From a virus: a stretch of 27,670 bases of DNA. Each line of letters begins with the position of its first letter. Position 1 is the first letter of the stretch. This document shows positions 5,453 to 21,711 of this stretch, piece by piece. The stretch is from positions 12,743-40,412 of the IMG/VR virus record IMGVR_UViG_3300030333_008303; one strand, 5' to 3'. Made by a program: the position numbers and the translations under genes. A model generated the notes under the pieces. The model searched no databases. It was given only the letters and a program-made list of their open reading frames with translations, and had not been told where the DNA came from.

Positions 5453-5650
5453 ATGGGTACTATAAAACCAATTCTAGATAAATCAATGGAGAAACTGCTA
5501 TCACGAAAGTTAATGGTTTGGACAACCGCAACTTACTTAATGTTGTTTACTTCTTCACTAGCAAGCGAAGACTGGGTGGCTATTTCTTTAGCTTACATTG
5601 GTATTCAGGGACTTGCTGATATTGCTACACGATGGAGACATGGATCATGA
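5453..5650 (+). CDS. Small two-segment membrane protein, holin-like
   Basis: The 65-residue protein has two hydrophobic segments (about residues 21-36 and 41-57) separated by a short polar turn (ASEDW) and ends in a basic tail (TRWRHGS). The pattern of a basic N-terminus, SRKLMVW, a hydrophobic span, an acidic turn ending in W, a second span with YIG, and a short charged tail is common among small phage proteins annotated as holins. GGGAG precedes the start. The stop overlaps the next start (ATGA at 5647-5650), and nearby genes encode coiled-coil membrane proteins, consistent with a lysis group. No endolysin is visible in the window, so holin function is a guess from topology and context. Confidence 0.45.
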   Translation: MGTIKPILDKSMEKLLSRKLMVWTTATYLMLFTSSLASEDWVAISLAYIGIQGLADIATRWRHGS

Positions 5651-5982
5651 AAATTACACAATCAAGACTTAAACAAATTATAACTGAAGAATTGTCTTTA
5701 TATAAATTCTATGATGAAGAGAAAGATTGGGGCGCCACCGGTAATAGATTCGATGCGGCAAAGTTGCGATCTAATTTTCCTCTAGAATCCACAGAAAATC
5801 TAACAGATGATCATATAGAGGTTGCTATTCGCGATGCGATCCACGATGGGGGCGATATGGAAGATTTTGCCAACAAAGAAACCATGGTTTCCGGAATGTC
5901 TAACGCCGAAGCAATTAAACTAAGCTTGGGAGATAGTGTAAAAGATTTATGGCAAACATGGTCAGAGGATAATTCGTTGTAA
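5647..5982 (+). CDS. Small protein with candidate capsid-targeting N-terminus
   Basis: I place the start at 5647 rather than 5632 because its ATG overlaps the upstream stop as ATGA and gives the N-terminus MKITQSRLKQIITEEL. The 111-residue product is acidic and probably soluble, with no membrane segment. The first 14 residues end in ITE and resemble in length and pattern the capsid-targeting leader of T4 internal proteins, which the gp21 protease cleaves after an (I/L)xE motif. A closely similar N-terminus (FKQLITEEL) starts the gene at 16967, next to the protease. It may therefore be a packaged internal protein. This is inference; the rest of the sequence is not recognised. The stop and the next start overlap by one base (TAATG). 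Confidence 0.6.
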   Translation: MKITQSRLKQIITEELSLYKFYDEEKDWGATGNRFDAAKLRSNFPLESTENLTDDHIEVAIRDAIHDGGDMEDFANKETMVSGMSNAEAIKLSLGDSVKDLWQTWSEDNSL

Positions 5983-6386
5983 TGATTACACTCCTTACAA
6001 TAAAAGCTTTTTTTAAAAAAGCATGGGTCTGGCTTAAACACAATTGGAAAGTACCGGCAATACTTTTATATACTATTGTCTTGTGGCTTTTTTTTAGAAG
6101 AAAAGATGCCGTTTATCAAGTTTTAGAAGAGAGAAACAAAAGCTATAAAAAACAAATTGATGCCATTAATGAAATCCACAACGAAGAGATTGACAAGAGA
6201 AATAAAATTTTAGAAAAATATAATGGTATTTTAAAAGATTTGGAAAAGCAATACGAAAAAGATAACCTTGAACTAGATAAAAACAAGAAGAAGGAGATTA
6301 AAAAGTTGGTAGAAGAATACAACGAAAAGCCAGATGAATTGGCAAAACTATTAGCAGAAAAGTATGGGTTAGAATATGTGGAATAA
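5982..6386 (+). CDS. Membrane-anchored coiled-coil protein, Rz/i-spanin-like
   Basis: The 134-residue protein has a basic N-terminus, one transmembrane segment (about residues 23-38, VPAILLYTIVLWLFF) and then a long Lys/Glu-rich coiled coil (about 46-110), ending in a short Leu-rich segment. This N-anchored, periplasmic coiled-coil topology is that of inner-membrane spanins, which disrupt the outer membrane at the last step of lysis in Gram-negative hosts. It lies two genes after a holin-like protein and overlaps the next gene, which has a signal peptide, by 11 bases, as inner/outer spanin pairs often do. No sequence motif proves spanin function, and a structural role is possible. Confidence 0.5.
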   Translation: MITLLTIKAFFKKAWVWLKHNWKVPAILLYTIVLWLFFRRKDAVYQVLEERNKSYKKQIDAINEIHNEEIDKRNKILEKYNGILKDLEKQYEKDNLELDKNKKKEIKKLVEEYNEKPDELAKLLAEKYGLEYVE

Positions 6387-6837
6387 AATAACATCAATAT
6401 TATTAGCATTGTCTTTGATGCTAACACCGGTATTAGCCATGGCTCAATCTCCTGTTCCTACAGGTGGTAAAATTACTGGTTTGCGTTATCAACAAAAAGC
6501 TCCCTATTCCGGAGTTTTATTGAACAGTATTGCTGCAGCAAAATTATTAACTGACAAAAATTATTCTGAAGAACAATGGAAATTAAAATTACAATATGAA
6601 TTGGCCAAACAATCGGCTGAACTAAATTTAATCATTGAATCTCAAAAAGCTTCACATCAAGCTTTAGAGCAAAAACATTTAACTTTAATAAAAATCAAAG
6701 ATAGTGAAATAGAACGTCTTTCAAAAATTGCCTCTAACAAAAAAAATTATTCTGTGTGGTGGGCTACGGGCGGTGTGGTAGTAGGAATTGGTTTAACAAT
6801 TGCTGTAGTTTATGCCGTCCAGCCGGGACTTAAATAA
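6376..6837 (+). CDS. Exported protein with signal peptide and C-terminal membrane anchor
   Basis: The 153-residue product starts with a clear Sec-type signal peptide (KITSILLALSLMLTPVLAMA, likely cut after Ala23) with no lipobox cysteine. The middle contains GLRYQQKAPYSGVLLN followed by a helical, probably coiled-coil region (about 60-120), and a Gly/Val-rich transmembrane segment lies near the C-terminus (about 127-148). It overlaps the preceding spanin-like gene by 11 bases, so the pair is probably translationally coupled. The topology (exported helical domain, C-terminal inner-membrane anchor) resembles a unimolecular spanin, but the missing lipid-attachment Cys argues against a standard one. 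I regard it as a lysis-associated or envelope protein of unknown function. Confidence 0.5.
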   Translation: MWNKITSILLALSLMLTPVLAMAQSPVPTGGKITGLRYQQKAPYSGVLLNSIAAAKLLTDKNYSEEQWKLKLQYELAKQSAELNLIIESQKASHQALEQKHLTLIKIKDSEIERLSKIASNKKNYSVWWATGGVVVGIGLTIAVVYAVQPGLK

Positions 6838-6838
6838 A

Positions 6839-7876
6839 ATGGCCCGAGGTATTGGTGAGTATAGCCGCGCGAAATTAATTAGAATAATTGATCAGCGTGT
6901 AAGTTCTGAGGGGGGCGACGGAGACATTACTAGTGTAACTGCCGGCAATGGACTTACAGGCGGCGGTACAACAGGAGATCTTAGCATAGCAGTTGATATC
7001 GGGGGCTCTGATGGTCAGCTATTATATAACGATGGAACAACTGATCTGGGTGGTGTCAGTAGTTTATCATTCAATGACAGTACCGGTGACTTACAAATAA
7101 TCGATGATAAAAAATTAATTTTTGGCACTAATAATGATTCCCATATAGAATATAACGAAAACGGCGATGACTTTCTGATAATATCAGGTTCCTCTGCTGG
7201 AATGGTTTTATCTGGAAGTACTATTCAAATTAGAGGAACGCTTGTCGGTGCATCGCCTCTCCAAATTGCTGGTGGTATTGAAATTGTTTCTTTGGCTGGC
7301 GAAGCAACGACTGCTATGTCTTTTGGTGACAACATTAAGCTTAATTTTGGTGATGAGAATGACACTTATATAAAATATAATACAGTGCGGAGCGCCAATA
7401 GTTTAGAAATTTCTGGCTCTGTTGGTGGAGGAATCAGACTGCTTGGCGAGAAAGTATATGTTGATAAATTTTTAGGAATTGGAGTCTCTGAAGATGATAT
7501 TACCCATGCCATTACTTTACCTAATAATGCTAACACATCAGGCCAGATTAAAGCAAATGCCTATGTTACATATTCTTCTGCGAGGCTAAAAGAAAATATC
7601 ACACAGATTAATAATCCAATCGAAATTTTAAATAAAATACAAGGTGTGACTTTTGATTGGAAAAATAATAAGAAAAAAGATATAGGTTTTATTGCTGAAG
7701 ATGTGGGTAAATATTTGCCACATATTGTAACTTGGGAAAAAAACAATCTAGATGCTCAAGGTTTAGATTATAATAAAATTATCCCAATTTTAGTGGAAGC
7801 AATTAAACATCAAGAAGGCAAAATCGACGCACTGCGCCGCGATTTAATTAAATTAAAAAATCTTATTGGTGATTAG
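6839..7876 (+). CDS. Tail fibre-type protein with C-terminal S74 self-cleaving chaperone domain
   Basis: I choose the start at 6839 (MARGIGEYSR, 345 residues), one base after the upstream stop, over an ATG 27 bases earlier inside the previous gene. The N-terminal and central parts are Gly/Ser/Thr/Asp-rich with fibre-like repeats (ITSVTAGNGLTGGGTTGD; DDKKLIFGTNNDSHIEYNENG). The C-terminal ~100 residues form a peptidase S74 intramolecular chaperone: YSSARLKENI holds the Ser246/Lys251 pair in the SxxxxK spacing of the family, followed by IGFIAEDVGKYLPH and LDYNKIIPILVEAI. Such domains help trimerise fibres and then cut themselves off. The next gene ends in a second S74 domain, so the phage has two fibres of this class in tandem. 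The N-terminus is not recognised as a baseplate anchor. Confidence 0.82.
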   Translation: MARGIGEYSRAKLIRIIDQRVSSEGGDGDITSVTAGNGLTGGGTTGDLSIAVDIGGSDGQLLYNDGTTDLGGVSSLSFNDSTGDLQIIDDKKLIFGTNNDSHIEYNENGDDFLIISGSSAGMVLSGSTIQIRGTLVGASPLQIAGGIEIVSLAGEATTAMSFGDNIKLNFGDENDTYIKYNTVRSANSLEISGSVGGGIRLLGEKVYVDKFLGIGVSEDDITHAITLPNNANTSGQIKANAYVTYSSARLKENITQINNPIEILNKIQGVTFDWKNNKKKDIGFIAEDVGKYLPHIVTWEKNNLDAQGLDYNKIIPILVEAIKHQEGKIDALRRDLIKLKNLIGD

Positions 7877-7948: not shown

Positions 7949-9967
7949 ATGTCTGTAAATATTCAACATACAACTTATAGAGAGTATATTGATCTTCAAG
8001 ATATGTCAGGTTCCAGCAATGCTGTGCCTACTCTTGAGGGTGGTATATACTACGGATCAGGTTCAATTGTAATGAACTCTGCTCTAAAGGTAGGCGGTAA
8101 GATTACCAATGTTACCGATCCTGCTGCGGCGCAAGACGCCGCAACTAAAGCTTATGTCGATGCGCAGTTAACTGCTCAAGACTTAGACTTTAGCACTGAT
8201 TCCGGTACCGGCGCTGTCGATCTTGACAGCCAAACCATGGCTTTCGCTGGTTCAAGCGGTCTAGATGTTACTCACAGTGGCCAGACCATTACTTTCGCTA
8301 TTGACGTTAACGAAGTAGCTGCTGAAACTGATGTTCAAGATGCCGATGCGCTTCTTATTTATGATAACTCTGCAGGAGCCAGCAAGAAGATGACTCGTGC
8401 CAACCTTTTAGGTTCTGCCGCTGCAGCTTTTAGCAACGGTCTTACTTCAACCACTGTTAGTGGTTCTGGTGCTGCTCAATTCAAGTCGCTTCACTCTGAT
8501 GATGTAAATCTTGATGGTGGTAACATCGACGGTGTAATCATCGGTGCTGCTTCCGCTGCTGCTGGTACTTTTACCAGTTTAGTTGCTGGTGGCAACGTTG
8601 ATTTAGGTGACGCTACAACTGACACCATTACTGCTACTGGTCGTTTTGATTCCGATCTTGTTCCTTCAACCGATTCTGCTCGTGACTTAGGTAGTAGTGC
8701 TCTTCAATGGAAAGATATCCATGCTGACGCAGGTTATATCGATGCAATGACCGTTACTGGCACTTCTACTCTTGGTGCTGTCACAGCAACCACTGTTAGT
8801 GGTTCCGGTGCTGCTCAATTCAAGTCGCTTCACTCTGATGATGTAAATCTTGATGGTGGTAATATGGATGGTGTAATCATCGGTGCTGCTTCCGCTGCTG
8901 CTTCTAACTTCACCACTGTTTCTGGTACTGTTGGTTCATATAGCTCGATGTTAGTTAATACAACTATCGGTGTCGCAGGTGATACTGATCTTCTTACTCT
9001 TGAGAGCGGTATGCTTTCGGTAGCTGGTGAGATTTCTGGTTCAGACGCTGCGGAGTTCAAGTCACTTCACTCTGATGATGTAAATCTTGATGGTGGTAAC
9101 ATCGACGGTGTAATCATTGGTGCTTCTGCAGTAGCCAACGGTTCTTTCGCTGCTATAGTCGGAACAAGCGCTACTTTGAGTAGCACTCTTACTGCTAATG
9201 CTGATGTTAATCTTGGTAACTCTGGCTCTGACGTGACTACGATTAGTTCACAGCTTACTGCTTCTGAGGGTGGTTTGTTCAATGATGAGCTTAAAGCTCA
9301 TGGTGGATTGGTTGTTGACGGCCTTGCTGAATTTGAAGGTAACGTTCATCTTGGTTCCAATCAGTCTGATGATATCACCGTAAACGGTCGCATCGCTTCT
9401 GATTTTGATCCAAAAACTGATAACACTTATGACCTAGGTGCTTCTGGTTTAGAATGGAAAGATCTTTATGTTGATGGTGTTGGTTATATTGATTCTATAG
9501 ATTGTGACACAATAAAGGTTGGAGATCTAACTGACAATCGTCTAGTCTTCGCTGGTGCTTCCGGTGAGCTAGAGGACAGTGCTAACCTTACCTACGATGG
9601 TTCAACTCTTGATATTGCTGCTGCTGTATCAGTTGATGGTGACATCACTCTTGATTCTGACCACGATGTAAAGGCTCGCTCTTTTATCACTTATTCAGAT
9701 GCTACTCTCAAGACAAACGTTGAGACAGTCACAAACGCCATGGACATGATCCAAGGTTTACGTGGTGTTTCTTACGACTTGAAAGAGGGTGGAAAGCGTG
9801 AGTTTGGTTTCATCGCTCAAGAGGTCAACACAGTTGTTCCTGAAGTTGTTTCTACTAAGAACAACATGATGGGTATCGATTACACTCGTATTACTTCCTT
9901 ACTTGTTGAGGCAGTTAAAACACAACAGGCTGAAATCGAGGCTCTTAAAAATAAACTAGACAAGTAA
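7949..9967 (+). CDS. Large tail fibre protein with internal repeats and C-terminal S74 chaperone domain
   Basis: The 672-residue protein has a strong site AAAGGAGAAA before its ATG. Near the N-terminus it has the fibre motif AATKAYVDA. The shaft contains three copies of a block built on FKSLHSDDVNLDGG, plus two copies of a DLGxSxLxWKD block (DLGSSALQWKDI and DLGASGLEWKDL). The C-terminal ~90 residues are a peptidase S74 chaperone: YSDATLK gives the Ser583/Lys588 pair, then FGFIAQEVNTVVPEVV and IDYTRITSLLVEAV. It probably forms a trimeric fibre that recognises the host and releases the chaperone by autocleavage. Its codon choice (GGT, CGT, CTT and GCT abundant) is like that of the capsid gene and unlike most neighbours, which suggests very high expression. 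A strong terminator follows it. Confidence 0.88.
   Translation: MSVNIQHTTYREYIDLQDMSGSSNAVPTLEGGIYYGSGSIVMNSALKVGGKITNVTDPAAAQDAATKAYVDAQLTAQDLDFSTDSGTGAVDLDSQTMAFAGSSGLDVTHSGQTITFAIDVNEVAAETDVQDADALLIYDNSAGASKKMTRANLLGSAAAAFSNGLTSTTVSGSGAAQFKSLHSDDVNLDGGNIDGVIIGAASAAAGTFTSLVAGGNVDLGDATTDTITATGRFDSDLVPSTDSARDLGSSALQWKDIHADAGYIDAMTVTGTSTLGAVTATTVSGSGAAQFKSLHSDDVNLDGGNMDGVIIGAASAAASNFTTVSGTVGSYSSMLVNTTIGVAGDTDLLTLESGMLSVAGEISGSDAAEFKSLHSDDVNLDGGNIDGVIIGASAVANGSFAAIVGTSATLSSTLTANADVNLGNSGSDVTTISSQLTASEGGLFNDELKAHGGLVVDGLAEFEGNVHLGSNQSDDITVNGRIASDFDPKTDNTYDLGASGLEWKDLYVDGVGYIDSIDCDTIKVGDLTDNRLVFAGASGELEDSANLTYDGSTLDIAAAVSVDGDITLDSDHDVKARSFITYSDATLKTNVETVTNAMDMIQGLRGVSYDLKEGGKREFGFIAQEVNTVVPEVVSTKNNMMGIDYTRITSLLVEAVKTQQAEIEALKNKLDK
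8450..8563 (+). repeat. Fibre internal repeat, copy 1
   Basis: This is a 114-base block, nearly identical to 8789-8902 (offset 339 bases). It encodes VSGSGAAQFKSLHSDD and then VNLDGGNIDGVIIGAASAAA in the fibre shaft. Confidence 0.85.
8789..8902 (+). repeat. Fibre internal repeat, copy 2
   Basis: This copy differs from copy 1 at only a few bases, including the change of NIDG to NMDG. The near identity of the DNA suggests recent duplication or gene conversion inside the fibre gene. Confidence 0.85.
9047..9125 (+). repeat. Fibre internal repeat, copy 3 (shorter, more diverged)
   Basis: This copy shares the core encoding FKSLHSDDVNLDGGNIDG but diverges at both ends. Confidence 0.8.
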
Positions 9968-16244: not shown

Positions 16245-16338
16245 TTCATGGACAGGCCGATGGAAACTACAACCAGTACGTAGGTGCTGCAGCGGCTCTA
16301 GACTCATGCGGGTTGCGCCCGTTAGAAGGAATAGATAA
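16237..16338 (+). CDS. Micro-ORF (33 aa), possibly a frameshifted small gene
   Basis: An AGGAGA site lies a few bases before this ATG, and its stop overlaps the protease start as TAATG, so translation signals look genuine. As read, the peptide starts MNNSWTGRWKLQ and then becomes Arg/Cys-rich, an unlikely composition. One frame over, 16250-16345 is open and reads like normal protein, including ADGNYNQYVGAAAALD and LRPLEGIDND, but it has no start codon. A +1 shift near GGC-CGA (16255-16260) would join MNNSWTG to DGNYNQYV. This could be a sequencing indel, a broken gene or a frameshifting site. Base composition here is clearly richer in G+C than its neighbours. Confidence 0.45.
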   Translation: MNNSWTGRWKLQPVRRCCSGSRLMRVAPVRRNR

Positions 16339-16970
16339 TGACTAAAAAACTTTTAAGAGAATTTTTTGAATTAAAGTGTGATGATCGTGGATGCCGCGAC
16401 CTTCTTACCGAAGGTGAGAAAAAGATGATCAATGATGGATTTCTCATATTTCCAGCAAAACTCCAAGAAGCAGAGGCTACTAATGGAAACATGAGACAAT
16501 ACCCTAAATTGGTTTTAGAACGAGAAATTAATAATTACCAAAAACTTGTACAAGAAAGTAGAGCCTTGGGGGAGTGTGATCATCCCGACGATTCTGTTAT
16601 TAATTTAAAAAATGCTTCTCACATGGTTAACCGTATTTGGTGGGAAAACAATAATGTTTTAGGAACAATTAAAGTATTGAAGACTCCTTCCGGAGATATT
16701 CTTCGAGGGCTTTATGAAAGTGGTGTACTTTTTGGTTTTTCATCTAGAGCAATGGGTTCACTTAAAGAAGGTATTGGTCAAGACGGAAGTAACGTTCAAG
16801 TGGTACAAGATGATTTACAGCTTATTTGCTTTGATGCCGTATCAGAGCCGTCAGCCCCCGGCGCGTATCTTATGCGTGAGGGCGTTGAAAAAAACCTACA
16901 GCAAATTTATACCAAAGGGGATAAAATCAATCGCGCATTAAATGAAATCTTAAGAGGGTATTCTAAATGA
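16338..16970 (+). CDS. Prohead maturation protease (gp21-like)
   Basis: The 210-residue protein shows the herpesvirus-protease-like phage prohead protease pattern: an Asn/Gly-rich start of the domain (EATNGNMRQYP), the catalytic His in GECDHPD (His82), the nucleophile in GFSSRAMG (Ser135/Ser136) and a later DAVSEPSAPGAY (Asp166). In T4, gp21 sits in the prohead core, degrades the scaffold and trims capsid and internal proteins after (L/I)xE. A possible self-processing site, LLTE followed by Gly (residues 22-26), is near the N-terminus. The ATG overlaps the stop of the micro-ORF and has an AAGGAA site. The scaffold and capsid genes that would be its substrates lie downstream. Confidence 0.9.
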   Translation: MTKKLLREFFELKCDDRGCRDLLTEGEKKMINDGFLIFPAKLQEAEATNGNMRQYPKLVLEREINNYQKLVQESRALGECDHPDDSVINLKNASHMVNRIWWENNNVLGTIKVLKTPSGDILRGLYESGVLFGFSSRAMGSLKEGIGQDGSNVQVVQDDLQLICFDAVSEPSAPGAYLMREGVEKNLQQIYTKGDKINRALNEILRGYSK

Positions 16971-17944
16971 AATTAAATGAATCGAGTTTTAAGCAGCTTA
17001 TTACTGAAGAATTAATTGTATCTTTACTTCAGGAAAAAAGAATTGTTCAAGCTGAAGAACTGTTGTGGGAAACGCGTCAACAACAACGTCTAGACGAAAA
17101 ATGGTGGAAAAAAGTTTTAGGCACGTGGACACCAACAGATGAAGATATAAAGGATGAAACCCTAGAAGATAAACTGGAAGATTTAACTGTCAATGTTATT
17201 AGAGATTTAAGAGGTTCCGGTCAATATAGTAAAGAACAAGCAGAAGAAATTGTTAAAAAATATCTTGATGGCGACCCGGACATGACCAGAATAGATCACA
17301 AAGACTTAACCAATTTATTTTTCAAACTTAGTAAAAAACAAGCCGAGGAGATTGAAAAATTAGAAGCTGCAGAGGATGAAGCTGGTGACGCCGAAACGCA
17401 AGCTGGAGAACAAGAGGCCGAGGCTGATGGCGAGACCACTGCCGAAACAGTAAAAGATATTTCTACTTTACTTCAAGATCCTACCACGCGAAAGTTACTC
17501 TTAAGGGGTCTAATTACATTGTTAACCAATGATTCAGTCGAAAGAGTATTAGCAACTTTAAAGCCAGAAGGAGCGAGAGAAGCAGTGTTGACCTTTTTAA
17601 AGCAAGTAGCTGATATGGAGCCTAAAGCTCTACGACAGATTAAATCTCAGATGCAAGGAGAACTTTTCTCTAGTCTTATGGGCGGCGAGGAAATTTTTGG
17701 CTTGGCGACTGCTCAAGAGCTAGACCAAATGACAGATCCTTCGGCAACTCCAGAACAACAAGAACGCGCCGGAAAAACAGTTAAAAAAATGGTAGGAAAA
17801 GCAGCCGGTGACAGAGTATCAAGCAAGCTTTCGAAAGTAGGTCTCTCAGAGCAAGCTTATAGAACAATGGTCAAAAACATAACCATTTTAGAAACATTCA
17901 ATCTCTATATTGAAAAAAGATTACTTATTCAAGAGGCAAAATGA
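16967..17944 (+). CDS. Probable head-associated protein with candidate targeting N-terminus
   Basis: The 325-residue protein starts MKLNESSFKQLITEELIV, very like the start of the gene at 5647, with ITE at residues 12-14. The middle (about 125-165) is highly acidic and Ala/Glu-rich (EIEKLEAAEDEAGDAETQAG), followed by helical segments (LLRGLITLLTNDSVERVLAT, LGLSEQAYRTM-like region near 290). The ATG overlaps the protease stop (ATGA), and its own end overlaps the next gene the same way. Its place beside the protease, and an N-terminus resembling the cleaved leader of T4 internal proteins, make a prohead-core or packaged protein likely. No enzyme motif is visible. Confidence 0.62.
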   Translation: MKLNESSFKQLITEELIVSLLQEKRIVQAEELLWETRQQQRLDEKWWKKVLGTWTPTDEDIKDETLEDKLEDLTVNVIRDLRGSGQYSKEQAEEIVKKYLDGDPDMTRIDHKDLTNLFFKLSKKQAEEIEKLEAAEDEAGDAETQAGEQEAEADGETTAETVKDISTLLQDPTTRKLLLRGLITLLTNDSVERVLATLKPEGAREAVLTFLKQVADMEPKALRQIKSQMQGELFSSLMGGEEIFGLATAQELDQMTDPSATPEQQERAGKTVKKMVGKAAGDRVSSKLSKVGLSEQAYRTMVKNITILETFNLYIEKRLLIQEAK

Positions 17945-18384
17945 AGAAATCAGATCTCAAAAAAATTATCAAACCTATTGTTCAAGAGTGTATAAACGAA
18001 GCGCTCACTGAGCAAGGATTACTCTCTAATTTAATATCAGAAGTGGTAAAAGGCTTACAGCCTATTCATACCCAACCTTCTGTTTCTGTGCCAAACCCAC
18101 AAGTAGAGTTCCAGCAGCAACAATTAGAAGAACATCGCCAAGAGTTAGAAGCTCAAAAGCAACAGCAACTTAAAGAACAAAAAAGAAAACTTTTAGATGC
18201 TGCCGGTTTTGGTACTGATATTTTTGCGGGGACTGAACCAATTACTGGCGGAATCACCACAGAGAGTAAAGATCCTTCAGGCGGCAAAGCTGGGGCCTTG
18301 GCAGATGTTGATCCTAATGATCCTGGGGTAGATATCTCTGGAATCATGGCTCTTGGTGGTAGAAACTGGGGCAAGATGATTTAG
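17941..18384 (+). CDS. Gln-rich coiled-coil head protein, unknown
   Basis: The 147-residue protein begins MKKSDLKKIIKPIVQECINE and has LTE at residues 22-24, a Gln-rich coiled coil (EFQQQQLEEHRQELEAQKQQ, about residues 57-83), then a Gly/Pro/Asp-rich linker and a distinct end, GVDISGIMALGGRNWGKMI. The start overlaps the preceding stop (ATGA). The compact C-terminal motif looks like a conserved binding peptide. Given its position between protease and scaffold, a minor prohead component is plausible. The family is not firmly recognised. Confidence 0.6.
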   Translation: MKKSDLKKIIKPIVQECINEALTEQGLLSNLISEVVKGLQPIHTQPSVSVPNPQVEFQQQQLEEHRQELEAQKQQQLKEQKRKLLDAAGFGTDIFAGTEPITGGITTESKDPSGGKAGALADVDPNDPGVDISGIMALGGRNWGKMI

Positions 18385-18393
18385 GGGGATAAA

Positions 18394-18630
18394 ATGTCTA
18401 GCAACAAAGTAATTAGAGTGGAAATAAAACCTAAATACGCAGATGAGCCACTCGAACGAATGATAAAAAGATTTAGCAAAAAAGTAAAAAAAGAACGCAT
18501 TATAGAAAAAGTTCTTGAACGACGCTACTTTGAAAAAAACTCAGATAAAAAGCGTAGACTAGAGAAAAAAAGAAAAAGAGTCCTAGATAAACTCAAAAGA
18601 AAACATTCACAAAACTTAGATAGACGATAA
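18394..18630 (+). CDS. Ribosomal protein bS21-like
   Basis: The 78-residue, very basic protein follows the bS21 pattern: VIRVEIKP at the N-terminus, EPLERMIKRF (18-27, compare EP...LRRF in bacterial S21), a helix ending in VLERRYFEKNSDKKRR (40-55, compare EVRRREFYEKPTTERKR), then a Lys/Arg-rich C-terminal helix. bS21 binds the 30S subunit near the anti-Shine-Dalgarno end of 16S rRNA and affects start-site selection; homologues are known in phage genomes. It has a strong GGGGGAT site and lies within the head operon, so it would be made late. A generic basic helical protein is the alternative, but the ordered matches along the length favour S21. Confidence 0.78.
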   Translation: MSSNKVIRVEIKPKYADEPLERMIKRFSKKVKKERIIEKVLERRYFEKNSDKKRRLEKKRKRVLDKLKRKHSQNLDRR

Positions 18631-18687: not shown

Positions 18688-19866
18688 ATGTCTTCCATGT
18701 TAGAACAAGCAATTATCGACGCTGATGAACTAAAAGAAACAGCAAAACAAACCGCCGAAGAGGCAATTGTAGAAAAATATCAAGATGAGATTAAAGAAGC
18801 AATTGAAAAAATTCTGGAGCAAGACGAACTTACCGAAGAGGGTGAGCCTGTTGAAAGTGAAGAGGTTAAAGATCTCGTAGAAGAGCTACCATCTGCACAA
18901 ATGGGAGAAATGGATGAGGTTGTAGAAATCGATCTCAACAAGCTTGAAGAAATGATGGCAGAAGAGTTGGAAGAAGGCGAACTTGATGCTGCTGATATGC
19001 TTGAACGCGAAGAAGTTGCTGAAGAAATTGACGCCTTGACCGAAGAAGAAGTAGAACTCGATGAGGACATGCTAGCAGAACTTACGGACGAAGAGGTTGA
19101 TATCACCGAGGAAAATATTGCCGCTCTTGTTGCGGAGATTTTAAGTGAAGATATGATTGGAGATTCTACGGCAGAAGAAACAGCAGAAGCTGATGAAGAA
19201 ACTGCCGAAGCTCTTGAAGAAGTTGAAGAACTAGAGGAAGACAAGGCAGAGGAAGAGGCCAAGCCCGATTATATTGATTTGGATGGAGATGGAGACAAAG
19301 AAGAATCCATGAAAAAAGCAGCCGAGGACAAAAAGAAAGCCGGAAATCGAGACACCCGTGATGATATGGGTGGTGGCCACGGCGATTATAAGGTTGCAAA
19401 AGAAAAACCTGACTTCCCTTATAGAGAATCTAAAGAACTCCAAAAAGAAAACAAATCACTTTTAAATGAACAAAAGAGAACAGAACGAAAAGTCCAACTA
19501 TTGAAAGAAAAAGTAGATAAGTATGGCACAGTCATTAAACAGCTTAAAGATAAGCTTAATGAAAGCAACTTGACTAATGCTAAGTTGCTATATCAAAATC
19601 GCATTTTAAATAGCGTCTCCTTGAATGAGCGGCAAAAAGATAAAATTGTCGAAGCTATCTCAAATGCAACTACGGTTGAAGAAGCAAAATTGATTTTTGA
19701 AACTCTTCAGAGTGCGGTGGGTGTTTCTAAGCGTAAGCATAAGAGACCAGAATCACTGAACGAAGTTGTAACACGTAGCTCTTCAGCGTTTTATCCTCGT
19801 AAAGAGGTAAAACCCAGTACGGATGTTTTTTCCGATAGGATGAAACGTTTAGCTGGTTTGAAATAG
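18688..19866 (+). CDS. Prohead scaffold protein (gp22-like)
   Basis: The 392-residue protein is extremely acidic in its first 190 residues (long Glu/Asp runs such as ELDEDMLAELTDEEVDITEE), then has a linker with DLDGDGDKEE (from residue 197, an EF-hand-like loop lacking the usual twelfth Glu), a coiled coil (about 250-310) and a C-terminal segment LNERQKDKIVEAISNATTVE, ending RMKRLAGLK. This architecture, an AAAGGAGAAA site and a position directly before the capsid gene fit the T4 gp22 core scaffold, around which the capsid shell forms and which the gp21 protease later destroys. Many LTE and similar tripeptides are available for cleavage. The assignment rests on composition, the C-terminal motif and gene order. 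Confidence 0.82.
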   Translation: MSSMLEQAIIDADELKETAKQTAEEAIVEKYQDEIKEAIEKILEQDELTEEGEPVESEEVKDLVEELPSAQMGEMDEVVEIDLNKLEEMMAEELEEGELDAADMLEREEVAEEIDALTEEEVELDEDMLAELTDEEVDITEENIAALVAEILSEDMIGDSTAEETAEADEETAEALEEVEELEEDKAEEEAKPDYIDLDGDGDKEESMKKAAEDKKKAGNRDTRDDMGGGHGDYKVAKEKPDFPYRESKELQKENKSLLNEQKRTERKVQLLKEKVDKYGTVIKQLKDKLNESNLTNAKLLYQNRILNSVSLNERQKDKIVEAISNATTVEEAKLIFETLQSAVGVSKRKHKRPESLNEVVTRSSSAFYPRKEVKPSTDVFSDRMKRLAGLK

Positions 19867-19887: not shown

Positions 19888-21711
19888 ATGTCTATTTTAC
19901 AAAAACTTACAGAGGGTGTCGTTAATCGCGACATGCGTAAGGAAGGTGCTGCTCTCCTCGAAAAGTGGGAGAAGACAGGTCTTCTAGAAGGTCTCCAAGA
20001 TGATGCTGCCAAGAATGGCATGGCTCGTCTTTTGGAGAACCAAGCGAAGCAACTCTTAAAAGAGGCAGCTTCAACAATGAGCGGTGGCGATGTCGAAGGT
20101 TTCGCTGCTGTTGCATTCCCAATCGTTCGCCGTGTTTTCGGTGGACTTATCGCTAACGAGCTTGTTAGTGTACAACCAATGAGCCTACCTAGTGGTCTCA
20201 TCTTCTTCCTTGACTTTACATTCGGCGGTGTTCTCGGCGGTGATAGTAGTCGTCTTGGATTTGATGATGATAAATCCCTTTATGGAGGTAACAAAGTTGG
20301 TAGTGCGATTACCGGTGGTGTTGATCTTGCTGGTAACGATGGCGAGGATGCCGGTCAGTTTTATAACTTGACAAACGGTTATTCTTCACCAACCGGCTCT
20401 GGTACCATTATTTCAGCTTCTTATATTGTTCTTTCGGGTTCAATCACTGAGGGTGGTAAAGCTGCTTCTGCTGATCAATTTCCTGGTGGCACAAATGGTT
20501 ACGGTGGATTTACAGCCGATGAGGTTACTTCTCTTCTTCGTTTTGATCCTGACTTACGTTCTGGATCGGTTTTCGTTGTGGTTGAAAAAGACATGTCGAC
20601 AGCCATGGGTCTTGTTACTCCAAACGCGAAGTTTGATTATAACAACCTTGCTGCGGCAACCATTGATGGTTTGACCGAGGGTAATTGTATCCGACGTTTG
20701 ACTCACCTCAGTCAAAGTTCTGATGGTGGTACTACATCTAAGACTAAAGTTCGCTTTGTTGCTGTTGGTACTGGTTCTGCTGACACTATTGCTGGTCAGA
20801 TTGGTGCAGTTAAACTCTTTAAGGCCGATGTCGCAGCCGGCACGTTGACTTACCCAGCCACTGACAATTTTGCCGCTGGCGGCGCCGTTGGCTCTGTCGT
20901 AGGTGCTGCTGATTGGGGTCTCGAAAACAATGTAGATATTCCCGAGATTAACCTTAAGGTTGATTCCGTGAGTGTTACTGCGATGACCAAAAAGCTTAAA
21001 GCTAAGTGGACACCAGAATTGGGTCAAGACTTGAACGCATATCATAACTTGGATGCCGAGGTAGAACTTACTTCGCTTCTTTCCGAGCAGATTGCCTTAG
21101 AGATTGATCGTGAGATTCTTGAGGATCTCGTAGCTGGTGCTTCAGGCGCTGTATACTACTGGTCACGTAGCCCAGGTCTTTTTGTTAATAAGACCACTGG
21201 TGCTGAAGTTGGAGCTAGTTCTGCTGCCCCTGACTTCACGGGTACTGTTTCCGAATGGTATGAGACTCTTGGTGAGACAATTAACGATGTATCTGCACAA
21301 ATCCACAGAAAAACACTTCGTGGTGGTGCTAACTTCATTGTTACTTCACCAGAGGTTGCTAACATTCTTGAATTTACCGCTGGTTTCCGCGCCAACATAA
21401 CTGTTGACGACTCTAAGGGAACTGCTGGTACACAAAATGTTGGTAATCTCAGCAAGCGTTATGACGTCTATGTTGATCCTTACTTCCCACGTAACCTCGT
21501 GTTGGTTGGTCGCAAGGGCAACTCATTCCTAGAGAGCGGTTTTGTATACGCTCCTTACGTTCCATTACAAGTTACTCCTACCATTTTTGGTACCGAGGAC
21601 TTTGTACCACGTAAGGGTGTCATGACCCGCTATGCTAAACAAATGGTCCGTTCTGATATGTACGGTCTTGTTATTTGTCGTGGCCTTCTAGGTGAGAGTG
21701 GTGCCAGCTAG
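19888..21711 (+). CDS. Major capsid protein (gp23-like)
   Basis: The 607-residue protein has AAGGAGA before the ATG and gp23-type features: an N-terminal helical leader, then FPIVRRVFGGLIANELVSVQ and PMSLPSGLIFFLDFTFGG near residues 75-120, and a C-terminal part with KMVRSDMYGLV-like spacing (QMVRSDMYGLVICRG). A candidate gp21 cleavage site LKE followed by Ala lies at residues 57-60, close to the T4 gp23 cleavage after residue 65; LTE at 7-9 is another. It forms the hexamers of the head. Codon choice is strongly skewed to GGT, CGT, CTT and GCT, as expected for the most abundant virion protein. A hairpin and then a strong terminator follow the stop. Confidence 0.96.
   Translation: MSILQKLTEGVVNRDMRKEGAALLEKWEKTGLLEGLQDDAAKNGMARLLENQAKQLLKEAASTMSGGDVEGFAAVAFPIVRRVFGGLIANELVSVQPMSLPSGLIFFLDFTFGGVLGGDSSRLGFDDDKSLYGGNKVGSAITGGVDLAGNDGEDAGQFYNLTNGYSSPTGSGTIISASYIVLSGSITEGGKAASADQFPGGTNGYGGFTADEVTSLLRFDPDLRSGSVFVVVEKDMSTAMGLVTPNAKFDYNNLAAATIDGLTEGNCIRRLTHLSQSSDGGTTSKTKVRFVAVGTGSADTIAGQIGAVKLFKADVAAGTLTYPATDNFAAGGAVGSVVGAADWGLENNVDIPEINLKVDSVSVTAMTKKLKAKWTPELGQDLNAYHNLDAEVELTSLLSEQIALEIDREILEDLVAGASGAVYYWSRSPGLFVNKTTGAEVGASSAAPDFTGTVSEWYETLGETINDVSAQIHRKTLRGGANFIVTSPEVANILEFTAGFRANITVDDSKGTAGTQNVGNLSKRYDVYVDPYFPRNLVLVGRKGNSFLESGFVYAPYVPLQVTPTIFGTEDFVPRKGVMTRYAKQMVRSDMYGLVICRGLLGESGAS

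Follow-up and report, generated by a model that had tools for sequence, protein, structure and literature searches.

A candidate capsid-targeting leader shared by unrelated proteins of uncultivated T4-like phages

Two tagged genes in a T4-type genome segment

The window analyzed here is a stretch of 27,670 nucleotides (G000:C1:12743-40412) taken from a 50,480-base IMG/VR virus record. As presented in Table 1, it carries a T4-type head block in the order terminase, portal, S77 protease (16338), 16967, 17941, an S21-like gene, 18688 and gp23 (19888), where the terminase and the portal were named by eye and from gene order. The Ribosomal_S21-like gene lies within this head operon at 18394-18630 (PF01165, 2e-9); similar small genes hold its place in relatives, and an annotated RpsU occupies it in Microcystis phage Mel-JY01. 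Elsewhere in the window, the ends of two fibre-like products (6812-7876 and 7949-9967) resemble the intramolecular chaperone domain Peptidase_S74, as judged by eye only.

Table 1. Features of the window that bear on the leader, with their positions.
Feature	Position	Strand	Remarks
Tagged gene 1	5647..5982	+	111-aa product: leader and a body without known relatives; predicted head cargo
Gene 1 leader MKITQSRLKQIITEEL, residues 1-16	5647..5694	+	Profile score 39.6
Gene 1 I12-T13-E14, predicted gp21-type site, cut after E14	5680..5688	+	Unforced I12/E14 conservation in the family
Tagged gene 2	16967..17944	+	325-aa product, adjoins the protease; accessory; predicted head cargo
Gene 2 leader MKLNESSFKQLITEEL, residues 1-16	16967..17014	+	Profile score 20.7
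Gene 2 I12-T13-E14, predicted first cleavage site	17000..17008	+	Family conservation
Gene 2 L21-Q22-E23, predicted second cleavage site	17027..17035	+	E-specific second-site enrichment in the family, residues 18-24
gp21-type prohead protease (Peptidase_S77), presumed processing enzyme	16338..16970	+	PF03420 7e-27; own LTE at 23-25
Conserved head-block gene, leader-like N-terminus, [LI]xE ending at 20 and 24	17941..18384	+	
Acidic scaffold-like gene, gp22 position directly before gp23	18688..19866	+	Putative, from position, composition and conserved place
gp23-type major capsid protein	19888..21711	+	PF07068 2e-74
Capsid L57-K58-E59 then A60, predicted maturation site	20056..20064	+	Alignment with T4 gp23
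Small holin-like gene flanking gene 1	5453..5650	+	Judged by eye
Rz-like gene flanking gene 1	5982..6386	+	phrog_739, weak at 3.7e-4

Two otherwise unrelated genes of the window, 5647 and 16967, start with the common pattern MKxxxxx[L/F]KQ[I/L]ITEEL, and ITE was found at residues 12-14 of both products, as the initial annotation of this DNA had reported. The start of 5647 is considered correct, since its ATGA shares bases with the stop codon of the 5453 ORF (5648-5650) and a GGAG at 5634-5637, nine bases upstream, is well spaced as a Shine-Dalgarno for this start, which it is not for the start at 5632 that would give a longer ORF. The start pattern MK[hydrophobic]xxxx[L/F]..[I/L]IxEE occurred twice in the window and in none of 100 shuffles. 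With a 16-residue profile the leader of 16967 scores lower than that of 5647, and no other start in the 50-kb record exceeds -11 bits; the record therefore contains no leaders of this kind besides these two.

The 16967 product possesses a second site besides ITE, whereas no second [L/I]xE was found in the leader region of 5647. This absence, together with the E that follows the first site, makes cleavage of the 5647 product less certain than that of an average member. Its relatives align over the N-terminal 16-37 residues only and searches of its body against Pfam, PHROGs and phage records were negative, so the search for a function through body homology was dropped. The AlphaFold model was poor (mean pLDDT 46), with a helix at 5-25. 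Gene 5647 had been described as far from the head genes, and its position, about 10.7 kb upstream of the protease and flanked by the holin-like and Rz-like genes, agrees with this.

We also analyzed the other proteins for which [L/I]xE sites had been proposed, and all the proposed sites are present. The protease matches the Peptidase_S77 (gp21) family profile, shares 33% identity with T4 gp21 and keeps the H and S of the family; E25 of its LTE 23-25 is nearly invariant in relatives, and this is a possible self-processing site. The 17941 product, possibly a core protein, carries LTE at 22-24, and [LI]xE ends at residue 24 in 51 of 55 relatives; the layout of this family is like that of the leader, with [LI]10, [LI]13, [IV]14 and E16 followed by [LI]xE ending at 20 and 24. 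The capsid protein matches the gp23 family profile and carries both LTE 7-9 and LKE 57-59. Judging from the alignment, the homologue of the T4 maturation site is predicted to be LKE 57-59 and not LTE 7-9: LKE|A aligns with FLTE|A of T4 gp23, and all 27 aligned sequences have LxE (IxE in two) at this position, followed by A, S or another residue. The capsid maturation site has the same motif as the leaders, whose second site is specific for E and depleted in D, in keeping with the requirement of gp21.

The leader family and its conserved positions

Hundreds of ORFs in uncultivated viral contigs start with a leader of consensus MKITKSQLKQIIKEEL. In the viral collection, the in-frame pattern was found in at least 119 stretches, often as 2-5 tandem genes, against 31 stretches for a frame-shifted control pattern over the whole collection, and these 31 loci are not clean, several of their contigs bearing genuine leaders elsewhere. 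Across 257 Gb of contigs from bacteria and archaea, 89 stretches matched the leader pattern, mostly singletons and at chance level, and the few contigs with several matches were phage-like. At seven loci, contigs filed under bacterial MAGs carried many leaders (PBIO01000025, NHDW01000006 and DJKT01000044), and these are probably phage contigs. A leader-family profile built on the first match set cleanly split leaders from background, and up to 16 leaders were counted per contig. Of 50,697 phage records, a single uncultured one matched the consensus peptide, and the literature searched held no description of this leader.

The bodies behind the leader are diverse. Clustering of 379 complete tagged proteins after removal of residues 1-26 gave 307 clusters, 276 of them singletons, a few of the proteins, for instance acyl-carrier-like ones, coming from bacterial contigs in which the start fits by chance. 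Among 120 long tagged proteins, single members match P-loop kinase, TseH-like, PAP2, GNAT and pentapeptide families. The P-loop kinase domain starts at residue 28 of its protein and the TseH-like domain at 59, while the GNAT match overlaps the leader, since it begins at residue 10. The N-terminal position, on which the initial annotation had placed most weight, is thus borne out by a motif that is N-terminal and common to unrelated proteins.

Leaders without the MK start (MSLSQKQIRKIIREEL, MSISKERLQEIIKEEI) were also observed, at L092:8233, L123:10288 and L169, so that the MK pattern undercounts the leaders. A longer variant, MKVILTESQLNQLIQEEVVEEG, stands on a 274-aa protein of record G006 (L469:4464-5288) and is possibly a sister leader type. 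At three loci (L049, L084 and L120), some tagged proteins contain further tag-like segments such as FELEEIIRQELSQILEND, internally or close to the C-end; in T4, the C-end of Alt is also processed (PMC9026906).

We evaluated the conservation of the core by two leave-out tests. When 325 non-redundant starts were selected on residues 2-10 only, I12 was found in 94%, E14 in 96% and E15 in 82%, and [LI]xE ended at residue 14 in 92%, compared to about 1% further along. When 339 starts were selected without residues 8, 11, 12 and 14, L8 was present in 96%, I11 in 80% (L in a further 12%), I12 in 94% and E14 in 95%. Both tests keep the unselected positions, and the motif is therefore not a product of selection. 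The positions L8, I11, I12 and E14 correspond to residues 4, 7, 8 and 10 of T4 IPIII with a constant shift of four residues. In mutants of IPIII (MKTYQEFIAE|A), targeting depended mainly on residues 4 and 7 and processing on residues 8 and 10, and Asp at residue 10 blocked processing and not targeting (PMC9026906).

A second [L/I]xE site, often at residues 18-22, was observed in 226 of 394 tagged proteins, compared to a mean of 102 after shuffling. Over residues 18-24, the probability of E given L or I two residues before was 0.376 against 0.089 otherwise (p 2e-49), whereas over residues 30-44 there was no effect (0.086 against 0.094). The enrichment was by far strongest at offset 2, only slight at offsets 3 and 5 and of opposite sign at offsets 1 and 4. 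At this second site D was depleted (ratio 0.35) and the next residue was rich in G, A and S. The [LI]xE|G/A/S site at 18-22 is probably the preferred one in many members of the family.

Protease co-occurrence and insertion at gene junctions

Co-occurrence of the leader with a gp21-type protease had been predicted, and we detected S77 in 28 of 50 long tagged records compared to 6 of 41 control records, a difference that is confounded with lineage and was therefore counted as consistent, not decisive. For records below 100 kb, the figures were 15/33 and 1/34. Nearly all the tagged records with gp23 also possess S77 (25/26), and the gp23 of the exception is cut at the contig start. None of the 41 long control records contained the leader. 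From the protease side, 20 of 64 independently fetched protease loci had a leader in their vicinity and 44 had none, compared to 1 of 120 control loci with a leader. Leader density was about 3 times higher at distances up to 1.5 kb from the protease. Two tagged records with a T4-type portal (G006 and G027) had no S77 protease match, and a 135-kb contig with 16 leaders, perhaps a fragment, had no head genes found. A second protease probe, phrog_207, gave no match in the 22 S77-negative records and none in its built-in control either, and is thus uninformative.

We then compared both junctions among relatives. Homologues of 5453 and 5982 are less than 100 nt apart in 22 of 25 relatives, and in one relative (L086) an unrelated tagged gene of 207 aa occupies this same junction. 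In 51 of 85 relatives, the protease gene and the homologue of 17941 are separated by less than 100 nt without a leader; the other 34 have an insert, which contains a leader in 15 of them. Of the 32 inserts at least 300 nt long on the opposite flank of the protease, 22 were tagged; the insert counts around the protease include a few contigs twice. Overall, 5647 and 16967 look like accessory insertions into otherwise collinear blocks at tight junctions. We considered 16967 as a conserved scaffold and rejected this assignment, since most relatives lack it here and 18688 holds the gp22 position; it would rather be an accessory cargo gene.

Interpretation and comparison with known systems

Taken together, the tagged proteins share, beyond chance, a leader with a conserved core and E-specific sites, linked to the protease and used in a modular way on unrelated proteins. 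In our view, the 5647 and 16967 products very probably begin with a removable capsid-targeting leader of 14-23 residues that is cut by the gp21-type protease. This reading had been put forward in the initial annotation, and all of its predictions that sequence can test came out in its favor. A coincidence is barely conceivable: a single tripeptide is indeed common in acidic proteins, but the shuffles, the frame-shifted control and the leave-out tests rule out chance, and the two leaders outscore the best of the other starts by 50 bits (5647) and 30 bits (16967). It is also very improbable that the leader is a DNA-level cassette, mobile or acting as a translation-start element, copied before genes with no protein function. 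Such a cassette would suit the tandem arrangement of tagged genes and their precise insertion between neighbouring genes; however, at identical residues of leaders from one locus the codons differ at 45%, compared to 54% expected if independent, which indicates selection on the protein and not on the DNA, and what is conserved is a protein pattern with free positions. This codon diversity rules out the cassette.

The remaining alternatives accept a leader with a function in the protein. It could be a docking helix for another component (RNA polymerase, ribosome, membrane or tail), its Glu sites belonging to a longer acidic helix that is never cut. The leader is predicted to be helical (a low-confidence model; hydrophobic moment of the consensus 0.36), some tagged genes lie far from the head genes, and the two portal-bearing tagged records without S77 protease would agree with such a role. 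In contrast, a plain acidic helix should tolerate D for E and show no tie of E to L or I two residues before, and both expectations fail; the leaders are moreover densest beside the prohead protease and their core fits the T4 spacing, so that we regard this helix as improbable. We give somewhat more weight, while still doubting it, to a head-targeting leader of which the second site alone is cut, E14 then being a targeting residue and 5647-like proteins keeping their leader. The residues after the second site are more T4-like (G/A/S), E14 is followed by E in 82%, and phiKZ-type propeptides have redundant sites (PMC9026906). Against it, a second site is missing from nearly half of the tagged proteins, and yet I12xE14 is kept in 92%, and the IPIII equivalents of these two residues, 8 and 10, are processing residues.

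Under the preferred reading of a capsid-targeting leader cut at E14, an amphipathic N-terminal helix (consensus L8, I11 and I12) would dock the new protein onto the prohead core, and the docked protein would be enclosed as the gp23 shell closes. The gp21-type protease (16338), in the same core, would then cut after I-x-E14, and many members would also be cut after the second [L/I]-x-E at 18-22. The mature protein, thereby freed, would remain associated with the DNA and be delivered into the next host. These features lead us to infer docking, cutting, packaging and injection of tagged proteins. More broadly, we think it fairly likely that uncultivated T4-like phages use a general plug-in leader, in which a docking helix is combined with one or two cut sites at Glu, to load large and fast-changing sets of unrelated proteins, enzymes included, into the head for injection.

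Since the leader is common to hundreds of unrelated proteins and has the T4 signal positions, it is probably the mark of a large group of injected proteins that has remained hidden. A leader of 16 residues makes hundreds of short, unannotatable phage genes candidates for delivery with the DNA, and offers a simple rule to find candidate injected proteins in metagenomes. If the reading is true, hundreds of ORFans become predicted effectors that reach the host within the first minutes of infection, and the junctions around the protease gene are hot spots for new cargo. The anti-restriction protein IPI of T4 is among the proteins delivered with the DNA. The T4 capsid-targeting principle, known from a handful of proteins, would thus be extended to a lineage that apparently uses it far more.

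Among known systems, phiKZ and SPN3US have N-terminal propeptides removed after Glu, with several sites each, and the diverged paralogues gp53 and gp54 have near-identical leaders (PMC5694885). Unlike the leader described here, most of these propeptides exceed 100 residues and their motif is AxE or SxE, not [L/I]xE. The protease 16338 is, like T4 gp21, a clear S77 member, and the capsid site LxE|A is kept; it differs from gp21 by a longer N-terminal region, where its nearly invariant LTE lies. The genomes of T4 and of Mel-JY01, the closest isolate by protease, contain no leader of this type, and the one T4 match with 2 mismatches has an internal stop.

The closest likeness is to the CTS of T4 IPI, IPII and IPIII, which is likewise short and N-terminal, begins with MK and has two hydrophobic targeting positions and then [I/L]xE. 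Both stand on unrelated mature bodies with E-specific processing, predicted in the case of the leader, and the leader shares with the CTS its presence at the N-terminus of many unrelated proteins, the IPIII spacing and a gp21-type protease in the same phage. Both are also found outside the head cluster, with ipII and ipIII near the lysozyme gene e in T4 and 5647 beside the holin-like and Rz-like genes here. T4 IPI, which is cleaved after ITE and before A, has the same layout as the second-site members (MKTFKEF...ITE|A). In contrast, the core of the leader comes four residues later (MKTYQEFIAE compared to MKITKSQLKQIIKEE) and its sequence therefore differs from the T4 CTS; outside the 4/7/8/10 spacing, the rest of the consensus differs as well. 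The leader also often has a second site at 18-22, stands on far more proteins, and the genes bearing it are grouped to either side of the protease gene. Overall, the leader would be functionally like the T4 CTS but, by sequence, a new, modular and widely used version of it.
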